In this document: positions 1,954 to 36,934 of the stretch, piece by piece
Numbering within the stretch: the first letter of the stretch is position 1
Layout of the letters: every line of letters begins with the position of its first letter
Source of the DNA: a virus
DNA: 37,326 nt
Reading direction: 5' to 3' (one strand)
IMG/VR virus record: IMGVR_UViG_3300043015_002484
Location: 1-37,326 of that record
Made by a program: the position numbers and the translations under genes
The notes under the pieces: generated by a model
Told to the model about the DNA's origin: nothing
Databases searched by the model: none
What the model saw: the letters and a program-made list of their open reading frames with translations, nothing else

Positions 1954-2523
1954 ATGCCAGAAGCACATGAGGTTTTTGCAGCAATCCGAAAATCTAAGAA
2001 ACTGAAACAGAAAGATTTCATTGGTATTGCAAGCCGTGCGACTATCGGCAGATTTGAGCAGGGTGAAGGCGATTTACCAACACAGGTACTTATTCGCGCA
2101 CTGAGAAAAATGAACATCACTTTAGGTGAGTTTGTCACCCGTATGGAAACGGAAGAGACACACGGTTATCACACTAAGAATGTGAATATTTTGAACTGGG
2201 CTGATATCGGGAAAGAAGAACCAGAACCGCAAGGCACTGTGTTCTATCCAAACGGAACCAAGCTTGAAAGCTACGCGCTTAAGGTTCGTGACGCTGCAAT
2301 GATATCCCCTGACTTTGCTATGAATTACCCTGTGGGTTGTTTCATCATCGTAGAGCCAATGAAATCAGTAAACGACAATACTTTGGTGATTGTTAAAGCA
2401 GGTGGAACATTCCACTTTAGACGCAAGTACCGTGGTAAATACGTTCCTGCAAATAATGAGTTTGAAACCATAGAGAAAGGTGAAGTAGTAGGGCGCGTTG
2501 TCGGTTGGGTTGGTAATGGTTAA
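1954..2523 (+). CDS. cI-like prophage repressor without self-cleavage residues
   Basis: 189 aa; AGGAG lies 7 bases before the ATG. Residues 1-65 form an Xre-type helix-turn-helix (KKLKQKDFIGIASRATIGRFEQGEG). Residues 75-189 form a LexA/S24-like dimerisation domain. Alignment by eye with lambda CI and P22 C2: the cleavage site, normally W-x-x-AG, reads WADIG; the catalytic Ser of the 'DSM' motif is Ala (RDAAM); the catalytic Lys after 'FTF' is Arg (FHFRR). The fold is kept while all three cleavage elements are lost, so direct RecA-stimulated self-cleavage is not expected. Induction would need an antirepressor or a sequestering partner, as Qtip does for VP882. It is the only rightward gene in this region and converges with the operon ending at 2546. 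Confidence 0.88.
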   Translation: MPEAHEVFAAIRKSKKLKQKDFIGIASRATIGRFEQGEGDLPTQVLIRALRKMNITLGEFVTRMETEETHGYHTKNVNILNWADIGKEEPEPQGTVFYPNGTKLESYALKVRDAAMISPDFAMNYPVGCFIIVEPMKSVNDNTLVIVKAGGTFHFRRKYRGKYVPANNEFETIEKGEVVGRVVGWVGNG

Positions 2524-11514: not shown

Positions 11515-12213
11515 CTAGTTAGGTAAATTTTCTTCAATCAGTTTTCTAAGAGAACTCTCAGCTCTCTGAAAAAACCTCACCATCTTTCTCATGTCTTTCG
11601 AATTTTCATAAAACCTTAAAGCAAAAGTTACTTCTTCATCCGTGATAGGGAACCCATGATTTAAAAGCTTCCCAGACTCTCGATTCTTTACCCTTTTCCT
11701 TAGCATCGTCTCATTGTCTAGAGGGAAATCGCGCCACCCTATTTTTTTAGAAACATGATTCTCCATCCTAAAATAGCTACCATTATAAATATCGACACCT
11801 TCAGAATCATCAAAGCTTGGTTTCTTATCAGTATTTATCGAGTTAGTGCTATCAACGTCTTCTTCTAAAGTATCTTCTCTTAAAAAGTATATCCCTTTAA
11901 AGTCAACTGAGGCATTCGTAAGCTTAACTCCGGCTTTCAAAAAAGTTTCTATCCAATAGATTTCTTTACAGAAAGATTCCTTTTCAGTTGAAATATTTGA
12001 TTCCAATACAACCAAGCCAATATTTTTATAACCATCTTCAAGAATATCTAGCATTCTTTTTTGCTTCATTGAGCCATGACAAAAATCCAACTCTGAAACA
12101 TGCTCGGCCAATCGAGCACTAGGATCTTTTCCCGTTCTCCCAACATAAAAAGGAGTGTGGCACCTTGGGTCTATTAATGCATAAACCGAAAATATATTTT
12201 GCTTATTTCCCAT
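11515..12213 (-). CDS. GIY-YIG domain protein under C4-type control
   Basis: 232 aa from ATG at 12213 (MGNKQNIFSVYAL), with AAGG 8 bases upstream; longer in-frame starts at 12228 and 12261 are possible. Residues 10-95 show GIY-YIG features: the VYAL and FYVGRT strands, Arg in GRTGKDPSARLAEH, and the downstream acidic residue and Asn in EIYWIETF...LTN. A variable linker follows, then a helical C-terminal domain (PITDEEVTFALRFYENSK) that may bind DNA. It is the last gene of the operon whose leader is the first C4-type RNA, where P1 has its antirepressor ant. It could be a nuclease of the lytic programme or an unusual antirepressor. Its start overlaps the 48-aa frame by 11 bases. Confidence 0.78.
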   Translation of the reverse strand: MGNKQNIFSVYALIDPRCHTPFYVGRTGKDPSARLAEHVSELDFCHGSMKQKRMLDILEDGYKNIGLVVLESNISTEKESFCKEIYWIETFLKAGVKLTNASVDFKGIYFLREDTLEEDVDSTNSINTDKKPSFDDSEGVDIYNGSYFRMENHVSKKIGWRDFPLDNETMLRKRVKNRESGKLLNHGFPITDEEVTFALRFYENSKDMRKMVRFFQRAESSLRKLIEENLPN

Positions 12214-12349
12214 TCTTGTAACCTTCATCTTTAGATCTTGTAATACCACTGTAGATGCCATAATCACGGCAGTATTGGTACAACAAGTGGCGAGGTACGT
12301 TAAGCAATGCACGATTTAATTCTGAACAGTTCTGTTTTGAATGTGGCAT
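12203..12349 (-). CDS. 48-residue protein, icd-like position
   Basis: ATG at 12349 has a strong GAGGTGA ribosome site. The 48-codon frame (MPHSKQNCSELNRALLNVPR and on) has normal composition and its last 11 bases overlap the GIY-YIG start in another frame, suggesting translational coupling. It starts 12 bases after the 76-aa gene. In P1 a small gene (icd) is likewise translated just before ant and couples its translation. Function unknown; too short for length-filtered gene calls. Confidence 0.7.
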   Translation of the reverse strand: MPHSKQNCSELNRALLNVPRHLLYQYCRDYGIYSGITRSKDEGYKNGK

Positions 12350-12361
12350 AACTCACCTCGC

Positions 12362-12592
12362 TTAGTTGTGTGAATCACGGCGAACGTTCTGCAACATGCG
12401 CTCGTTGATCTTTTTACATTCTGCCGAAAGGTCAGCGGCAGCATTTACAGCGTTTTGAGCATGAGATGAATCAACACCATTCTCCATAGCTACATCGAGC
12501 ACATGAAGAATAGAATGAATTTTATCTAGACGAGAGTCGAGCGCTTCGGTGCACTCAAAGGAATTAAGATTCTGAAAAGTATTTTGGCTCAT
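12362..12592 (-). CDS. 76-residue protein, first gene behind C4-type RNA 1
   Basis: ATG at 12592 (MSQNTFQNLNSFEC) is fixed by AGGAGG at 12599-12604. The product is helical and DUF3077-like (RLDKIHSILHVLDVAMENGV), similar in style to the proteins at 9063 and 11184. Its ribosome site lies inside the target segment CCAAAGG of the upstream antisense RNA, so translation should be blocked when the RNA pairs. Function unknown. Confidence 0.75.
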   Translation of the reverse strand: MSQNTFQNLNSFECTEALDSRLDKIHSILHVLDVAMENGVDSSHAQNAVNAAADLSAECKKINERMLQNVRRDSHN

Positions 12593-12598
12593 GATGGC

Positions 12599-12637
12599 CT
12601 CCTTTGGTTTTTTAATCACCATCAGGAGGTCTCAATC
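12599..12637 (-). promoter_or_regulatory. C4 target site on the operon mRNA
   Basis: Two segments, GATTGAGACC (12637-12628) and CCAAAGG (12607-12601), repeat those in the RNA's own 5' part and are complementary to its central arms. The second overlaps the ribosome binding site of the gene at 12592. Confidence 0.72.
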
Positions 12638-12660
12638 TCAACTGGTGGTGAACTGAACAG

Positions 12661-12830
12661 GGTTGAGACTACCGCACCAAAGGAAGCGGCCAGCCGAAGC
12701 TGCCCCATTCAGCCCACCATAATTTGGGTGTGCAGAATTTTACGCATAAAAAAACACGCGATAGTTAGGCGTGTCATGCGCCTTTGGTATTTTCGGGGTC
12801 TCAATCCCGGCACTGGATTTTGCCAGTGCC
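12661..12830 (-). ncRNA. C4-type antisense RNA, locus 1
   Basis: Leftward RNA, in order: hairpin GGCACTGG-CAAAAT-CCAGTGCC (12830-12809); GATTGAGACC (12806-12797); CCAAAGG (12787-12781); a long hairpin CGCAT/ATGCG plus ACACGC/GCGTGT; a C(UUCG)G-capped hairpin (12706-12688); CCTTTGG (12683-12677); GTCTCAACC (12669-12661). The last two can pair with the upstream copies or with identical copies at the target. This matches the logic of the P1/P7 C4 antisense repressor, which lies upstream of and is cotranscribed with its target genes. A second copy at 36783-36934 shows compensatory changes in every helix. Confidence 0.8.
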
Positions 12831-12835
12831 CTTTT

Positions 12836-12864
12836 ACAATAATGGCTCAAATGTGAGTCGTCAA
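12836..12864 (-). promoter_or_regulatory. Promoter of C4 locus 1 with embedded operator
   Basis: -35 TTGACG (12864-12859), 17-base spacer, -10 TATTGT (12841-12836); the first RNA hairpin begins 6 bases later. The family C palindrome GGCTCAAATGTGAGTC (12844-12859) fills the spacer, so a bound repressor would exclude polymerase. Confidence 0.75.
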
Positions 12865-13033: not shown

Positions 13034-13702
13034 ATGAGTTACTTAGGTTCCAAAGCAGCAAGCGGGGCGTACCAAGCCATAATTGCCAATATGCCAGCTC
13101 ATGACACATACATTGAAGCGTTTCTTGGCACTGGGACAATATTCAATAGGAAACCGCAATCTACAACTTCTATTGGCCTTGAGTTAGACAAGGTGACGCT
13201 AGACAACTTCTCAACAAACCACTCGATTCAAACGCATAATACCGATGCGCTTTCGTTCTTAGACGACTTCGACTTTTCGATGTCAGGCCGTACGTTCATA
13301 TATGCAGATCCTCCGTATTTGCCAGAAACACGAACCTCAAACAAAAAGTATCGCAAAGACTTCACTGTAGATGACCACATATCACTACTTAAATTAGCAA
13401 AAAAGCTAACAGAAAAAGGGGTACAGATTATGATCTCTGGTTACCCTTCTAAACTCTACGATGAAACACTTAAAGGGTGGCGAACTTACGAATTTCAAGT
13501 AATGACCAGGGGCGGAGCTAGAACGGAAAAGCTTTGGATGAACTACGAGAGCAATAGTGTTCATTGGGCTTCGTTCGCAGGGGTTAACTATACAGATAGG
13601 CAAAGGATAAAAAGAAAGGCGCAGAGATGGGCTAAGAACTATAAAGCACTAGATTCCAATGAGAGATTGGCGGTGCTTGCTGCATTGATGGAAGTGGAGT
13701 AG
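13034..13702 (+). CDS. D12-class DNA N6-adenine methyltransferase
   Basis: 222 aa. Motif X-like start MSYLGSK, motif I EAFLGTGTIF (residues 29-38, SAM binding) and motif IV DPPY (near 94-97, catalytic) identify the Dam/D12 family. It is shorter than Dam (about 278 aa), with a reduced target-recognition region, so the target site is uncertain. It is the only rightward gene between the C4 locus and the lysis genes and sits behind three family B palindromes. VHML also encodes such a methylase. It may protect phage DNA or alter regulatory GATC sites such as those at 4264-4314. Confidence 0.9.
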   Translation: MSYLGSKAASGAYQAIIANMPAHDTYIEAFLGTGTIFNRKPQSTTSIGLELDKVTLDNFSTNHSIQTHNTDALSFLDDFDFSMSGRTFIYADPPYLPETRTSNKKYRKDFTVDDHISLLKLAKKLTEKGVQIMISGYPSKLYDETLKGWRTYEFQVMTRGGARTEKLWMNYESNSVHWASFAGVNYTDRQRIKRKAQRWAKNYKALDSNERLAVLAALMEVE

Positions 13703-36605: not shown

Positions 36606-36647
36606 AAAAAAGCCCGTAACAACCGCTTGGGTTATCACTAGGCTTTT
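36606..36647 (-). terminator. Terminator ending C4 locus 2
   Basis: Leftward AGCC...AACC-CAAGC-GGTT...GGCT then TTTTTTGC. It begins at the stop of the 22-codon frame, making the locus a self-contained transcript of about 330 bases. Confidence 0.7.
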
Positions 36648-36714
36648 ATGTCTGAATAAGTTTGTTTGATGCGCTAAACCCATCGGGGCAAGCTGATGTG
36701 ATTTGTATGTGCAT
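36646..36714 (-). CDS. 22-residue peptide behind C4-type RNA 2
   Basis: ATG at 36714 with AAAAGG about 8 bases upstream; the frame runs 22 codons (MHIQITSACPDGFSASNKLI and on). Its start codon lies inside the target segment TCAAAATGC of the second C4-type RNA, exactly where the 76-aa gene has its ribosome site at locus 1. It could be a real peptide, or the remnant of a truncated target gene. Confidence 0.4.
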   Translation of the reverse strand: MHIQITSACPDGFSASNKLIQT

Positions 36715-36761: not shown

Positions 36762-36782
36762 TTGGGTGGCAAGCCAGAACGA

Positions 36783-36934
36783 GGTTGGAAACTACCGTCA
36801 AAATGCAAACGGCCTGCCGAAGCAGCCCCGCCCTAGCTCACCATAGAATAGATGTGCGCAGACGCACAGCGTAACGCTGTGGCATTTTGAGTCGTTCGAG
36901 GTTTCCAATCTCGGCGTTGGATTTTGCCAACACC
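36783..36934 (-). ncRNA. C4-type antisense RNA, locus 2
   Basis: Same architecture as 12661-12830: hairpin GGTGTTGG-CAAAAT-CCAACGCC (36934-36913); GATTGGAAACC (36910-36900); TCAAAATGC (36890-36882); a stable hairpin near 36853-36881; a C(UUCG)G hairpin (36829-36811) with CTGC/GCAG where locus 1 has CAGC/GCTG; GCATTTTGA (36806-36798); GTTTCCAACC (36792-36783). The arms differ from locus 1 but remain complementary, which is covariation. Loop sequences CAAAAT and UUCG, and blocks such as TATGGTG and GGGGC, are conserved. Confidence 0.78.

Follow-up and report, generated by a model that had tools for sequence, protein, structure and literature searches.

An isrK-C4 RNA leader in front of a three-gene GIY-YIG operon in two related phage genomes

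The immunity region immI of phages P1 and P7 (c4-icd-ant1/ant2) provides the reference for gene control by the C4 antisense RNA. In the annotated P1 record, the elements follow one another in the order C1 operator Oc4, promoter, a1, b1, C4, a2, b2, icd (73 aa) and ant1/ant2, where the first gene under C4 control, icd, encodes a cell division inhibitor. Antirepressor domains (pRha, Bro-N, P22_AR_N, KilA-N or AntA) are found in 27 of the 34 first genes behind the C4 RNAs surveyed here, a count that sums over these families and assumes one such domain per protein. A second reference is the isrK-orf45-anrP locus of Gifsy-1, where the isrK RNA stands at the 5' end, transcription reads through a terminator and a small first open reading frame (ORF) is coupled to the next gene, the cargo being the antirepressor AnrP. 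There, IsrK activates anrP in trans, and a processed RNA lying just downstream and complementary to isrK was likened to the CI RNA of P4, C4 RNA being unmentioned in that paper (PMC4825925). Leaders combining isrK and C4 are already annotated in other phages, e.g., APSE-7. In Acinetobacter baumannii, finally, the Group 1 C4-like sRNAs occur in many copies per genome with variable keys and are processed. RNase P cleavage of C4 was reported at a GGW motif, the precursor being processed to about 77 nt, and distant bacterial or phage mRNAs were suggested as targets of the A. baumannii RNAs, a point left open (PMC5320573).

The locus described here lies in the viral DNA record IMGVR_UViG_3300043015_002484, of which positions 1 to 37,326, i.e., the whole stretch of 37,326 nt that was analysed, are called the window. 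A sister phage (IMGVR_UViG_2548876821_000003) shares the leader as well as the three genes behind it, and the operon was found in these two phage records only. As ends 1 and 37326 of the window adjoin each other in the sister record, and those of the sister do so in the window, both records are circularly permuted whole genomes, though the window record is classed as linear. Because of this permutation and the presence of both a ParA-type gene and an integrase, the window phage, circular and temperate, is probably a P1-like phage-plasmid. It carries a repressor that is the likely target of an antirepressor and is 91% identical to that of the sister, namely:

1954-2523, plus strand: phage repressor of the S24/LexA type (Pfam Peptidase_S24, PHROG 4)

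On the minus strand, positions 12864 to 11515 form one transcription unit, where a promoter, isrK and C4 precede genes of 76, 48 and 232 codons. The elements of its leader are, in the direction of transcription:

12836-12864, minus strand: sigma-70-like promoter of the isrK-C4 operon (TTGACG, 17 nt, TATTGT), with bases identical in the sister
12846-12857, minus strand: palindrome CTCACATTTGAG, a putative operator between -35 and -10, based on motif counts and conservation in the sister
12749-12829, minus strand: isrK RNA (RF01394; 67.1 bits, E 2e-12)
12798-12804, minus strand: y'1 (TTGAGAC), upstream target of Y inside isrK, co-varying with Y in the sister
12781-12787, minus strand: x'1 (CCAAAGG), upstream target of X inside isrK, from the sequence and the upstream X pairing
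12641-12724, minus strand: C4 antisense RNA (RF01695; 70.8 bits, E 5e-12)
12677-12683, minus strand: X (CCTTTGG), loop segment pairing with the Shine-Dalgarno region, from the sequence and pairing tests
12663-12669, minus strand: Y (GTCTCAA), specificity segment, from the sequence, pairing test and co-variation
12629-12635, minus strand: y'2 (TTGAGAC), downstream target of Y, co-varying with Y in the sister
12601-12607, minus strand: x'2 (CCAAAGG), downstream target of X overlapping the Shine-Dalgarno AGGAGG (12603-12598), from the sequence and pairing tests

The order y'1-x'1-hairpins-X-Y-y'2-x'2, with a UUCG-capped hairpin inside C4, is as given in a preliminary description of this DNA, which had also recognised the switch logic of the P1/P7 C4 repressor. 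That reading agrees with the annotated P1 c4-icd-ant leader and is borne out by the covariance-model match, well over the curated cut-off of the Rfam model (45 bits for C4; 50 bits for isrK), and by compensatory changes in the sister. What the description had missed is that the upstream half of the leader, directly in front of C4, is itself the known isrK RNA, with a 3' end resembling an intrinsic terminator (ACACGC...GCGTGT followed by a T run). It also had x'2 cover the AGGAGG of the first gene; the overlap is real but extends over the first half of that motif only, the ATG following at 12592.

Set against P1/P7 immI, the window shows the same arrangement: the promoter carries an operator (putative in the window), C4 stands between two target pairs, of which the second is at the Shine-Dalgarno sequence of the first gene, this gene has 70-80 codons, and the genes downstream of it overlap. 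Unlike in P1, whose record annotates no such RNA, the upstream targets are part of an isrK RNA that ends in a terminator. In this respect the layout is that of Gifsy-1, with isrK at the 5' end, a complementary RNA just downstream and a small first ORF; terminator read-through, processing of the downstream RNA and coupling of the first ORF to the next gene would be further points in common. An isrK-C4 leader is likewise common to the window, APSE-7, phiV10, Tyrion and Vibrio phage 10N.286.54.F9_PE001, the latter having a Y segment (GTCTCAA) identical to that of the window. The difference resides in what follows: BRO-N or pRha regulatory proteins in those four phages, AnrP in Gifsy-1 and Icd with Ant1/2 in P1/P7, as opposed to, in the window, a first gene that is not icd, with genes for a 48-aa protein and a GIY-YIG protein behind it. 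As such, the novelty is the cargo and not the switch, which is already known from P1/P7.

That the leader exceeds chance follows from the Rfam scores, from the co-variation of Y with its targets in the sister and from a pairing test over 40 C4 loci. For comparison, the same C4 model finds the C4 of P1 itself at 68.8 bits. In the sister, Y reads AGTACTAACC instead of the AGTCTCAACC of the window, i.e., three substitutions, and both y'1 and y'2 bear the three matching substitutions (GATTAGTACC for GATTGAGACC) within flanks that are largely conserved. Across the 40 loci, taken from viral contigs, phage records and genomes and assessed for X and Y with up- and downstream targets, complementary runs average 6.8-7.4 nt with the locus's own targets versus 4.4-4.7 nt with swapped partners, so that the X and Y of a given locus fit the targets of that locus but not those of another. 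In the window leader, the predicted duplexes reach -28.7 and -26.6 kcal/mol, as compared with means of -16.4 and -14.9 for shuffled loops; in the sister, the upstream X pairing is weaker (one G-U) and the predicted upstream duplex of -17.1 is close to its shuffle mean of -15.7. Taken as a whole, the element is very probably a genuine C4 immunity switch, belonging to an RNA family and a circuit that are both known. The leader might instead be a remnant, placed by drift before late moron genes unrelated to it and no longer regulating, a reading suggested by a cargo unlike that of most C4 loci and by the site of the operon just behind the lysis genes; it is nonetheless highly improbable, given that y'1 and y'2 have both changed along with Y in the sister, that X and Y fit both targets, and that promoter and palindrome are identical in the two phages.

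Regarding transcription, the motif CTCANNNNTGAG occurs in four copies in the window versus a mean of 0.66 in shuffled sequences, none of 100 shuffles reaching four. Three of its sites are positionally conserved in the sister, namely (i) 12846-12857, in the isrK promoter, (ii) 1366-1377, in the early promoter at the start of the operon of the CII-like and Q-like genes, and (iii) 97-108, behind Q. A plain terminator was considered for the palindrome at 97-108, which is however kept beside Q in the sister. This palindromic motif is, from its distribution, the putative operator of the phage repressor. A candidate operator regulon would then span the C4 operon, the early operon of cII and Q, and the stretch behind Q. 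Of note, the spanin gene is separated from the isrK promoter by an inserted gene for a D12-class adenine methyltransferase (13034-13702), on the strand opposite to the operon, which the sister lacks.

By analogy with P1 and Gifsy-1, the circuit may operate as follows. Transcription would start at the promoter that probably bears the operator of the phage repressor; some transcripts would end at the isrK terminator, while those reading through would yield C4, presumably excised by RNase P as in P1; the published C4 cleavage motif is matched by the GGT at 12718-12716. The free C4 of a resident phage would bind y'2 by its Y segment and, at the Shine-Dalgarno sequence, x'2 by its X segment, thereby shutting off translation of the 76-aa gene, be it that of an incoming relative or of its own phage, and the 48-aa and GIY-YIG genes would be silenced along with it via coupling or polarity. 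The y'1-x'1 copy in isrK would take up C4 and relieve repression, as the Gifsy-1 work suggests for isrK-anrP. The operon would thus be expressed on entry into a cell lacking the matching C4, or with isrK in excess. When the leader is folded without C4, a local hairpin is predicted to sequester the Shine-Dalgarno sequence of the 76-aa gene (unpaired probability 0.14), for which reason C4 may not be the only lock, this intrinsic hairpin being a possible second one.

The three genes of the operon are:

12362-12592, minus strand: 76-aa protein, first gene under C4, in the slot of P1 icd
12203-12349, minus strand: 48-aa protein, second gene, without known relatives
11515-12213, minus strand: 232-aa GIY-YIG-domain protein, third gene, from a domain match and motif residues

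All three look like real genes under purifying selection, with dN/dS against the sister of about 0.045 (76-aa gene, strong selection), 0.09 (48-aa gene, of the same frame and length in the sister) and 0.16 (GIY-YIG gene). As already stated in the preliminary description, no ant is recognisable among them, i.e., Ant, Bro-N, KilA-N, P22_AR_N, pRha or AntA domains are found in none of the three. A search of solved structures gave no significant match. The roles of these proteins as effectors are the least certain part of the interpretation.

For the 76-aa protein, the most likely role is that of a small antirepressor or of an Icd-like factor for host takeover. Its window and sister copies share 93% identity, comparable to the repressor, and it is predicted to form a helical hairpin (AlphaFold pLDDT 81). 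In each phage record, it is the only ORF matching PHROG 10889 ("anti-repressor"), weakly, at 17.6 bits (E 0.005) in the window and 19.1 bits (E 0.0019) in the sister, the range reported for this match being 16-19 bits. Relatives were found neither among INPHARED phages, nor by peptide pattern in genome contigs, nor among 330 genomes of the family of Vibrio sp. 99-8-1 in a search run without positive control; a fold search with the model returned generic or designed helical hairpins only (best E 0.45). The resemblance to DUF3077 put forward earlier has to be abandoned, there being no Pfam match up to E 0.1 and none in NCBIfam. Because of its place in the icd slot, the strong purifying selection and the weak PHROG match, the best candidate for an antirepressor is not the GIY-YIG but the 76-aa protein, and to this role of the latter we give close to an even chance. 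An Icd-like function, where the protein would block cell division or act as a toxin that C4 silences in lysogens in the manner of an antitoxin RNA, is a more tentative proposal; it draws on the nature of the first C4-controlled gene of P1 and on the many Vibrio C4 RNAs that control only proteins of 48-66 aa without antirepressor domain, but the antirepressor PHROG is the sole family match of the 76-aa protein, whose similarity to Icd is not apparent by eye.

The third gene, which overlaps the 48-aa gene by 11 nt, encodes a GIY-YIG nuclease-like protein, an earlier assignment that holds from the sequence motifs: the window copy gives a weak match that falls short of the Pfam cut-off (LEM-3_GIY-YIG, E 0.086), whereas the sister copy exceeds it (PF01541, 26.5 bits versus 22.6), and residues Y11, Y23-x-G25, R34, H38, E77/E84 and N100 are kept in four homologues. 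The structure model is poor (pLDDT 45). Since some KilA-N/Bro-N antirepressors carry GIY-YIG-like T5orf172 domains, the protein might itself be the antirepressor, as the largest product of the operon and encoded behind a small first gene. The preliminary description, which saw it in the antirepressor position, was half right: it occupies the P1 Ant position, yet the first gene, directly under C4, is that of the 76-aa protein with its weak antirepressor match. The GIY-YIG protein as antirepressor is unlikely: besides having no Bro-N, KilA-N, AntA or pRha domain, it evolves much faster (60% identity with the sister) than the repressor and the 76-aa protein, and relatives occur in two Vibrionaceae genomes at loci without C4 (L171 and L172), to which a class sample of 369 genomes added two weak partial matches. 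As the family occurs also without C4, there is no sign that GIY-YIG replaces Ant. The L171 relative adjoins a TniQ gene, which suggests that it is transposon cargo, and for these reasons a mobile nuclease cargo, probably carried behind the 76-aa gene, suits the GIY-YIG protein better than an antirepressor. The operon points to a candidate small antirepressor together with a nuclease-like protein in the Ant position, and provides a simple case in which to ask whether C4 may also control genes with roles besides antirepression.

C4 RNAs are multicopy in some Vibrionaceae genomes, each with its own key and matching adjacent targets. An initial C4 search pattern proved too loose, most of its matches being due to chance, and was replaced. 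Vibrio sp. 99-8-1 (G004) has 23 C4 RNAs over the cut-off, and at least 13 were counted in each of several further genomes from its family. Nearly all of 43 examined C4 RNAs stand before an ORF of about 48-66 aa, which mostly belongs to one of two families (PDFYLQVEDFIL...NEI..FLLTLL and AREYL..L......EVLLYLNNLIT), for which no Pfam or convincing PHROG match was obtained. In 42 parsed loci, pairing with the own target is well above that with swapped partners (multicopy loci L202-L221 from G004; L237-L256 from G306, G107, G233, G236 and G166). We tentatively propose that C4 might be a portable, re-keyable lock of marine gamma-proteobacteria and their phages, placed before non-antirepressor genes such as the 76-aa/48-aa/GIY-YIG operon and the Vibrio cassettes. 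Some Vibrio genomes would then contain cassettes by the dozen, every one of them with a C4 key and targets of its own and a small protein from one of a few families, and such cassettes could be immunity-keyed effectors, released only in cells without the matching C4. Unlike the distant targets suggested for A. baumannii, each Vibrio C4 has its own adjacent small ORF, and this pairing suggests where to seek the targets of the Acinetobacter multicopy RNAs.

A further C4 RNA, whose key differs, is present in the window, in an insertion flanked by a holin-like and a transglycosylase-like late gene:

36762-36848, minus strand: second C4 RNA (X GCATTTTG, Y GTTTCCAA; 56.3 bits, cut-off 45)
36646-36714, minus strand: 22-aa ORF behind the second C4, x'2 overlapping its start codon, from the sequence

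This 22-aa ORF is the only one behind the second C4, whose front is isrK-like but below threshold (36.6 bits versus the cut-off of 50). The sister lacks this C4 at the corresponding place, and two metagenomic relatives have it. The region 36960-36600 also comprises a promoter-like sequence of its own and a terminator-like hairpin.
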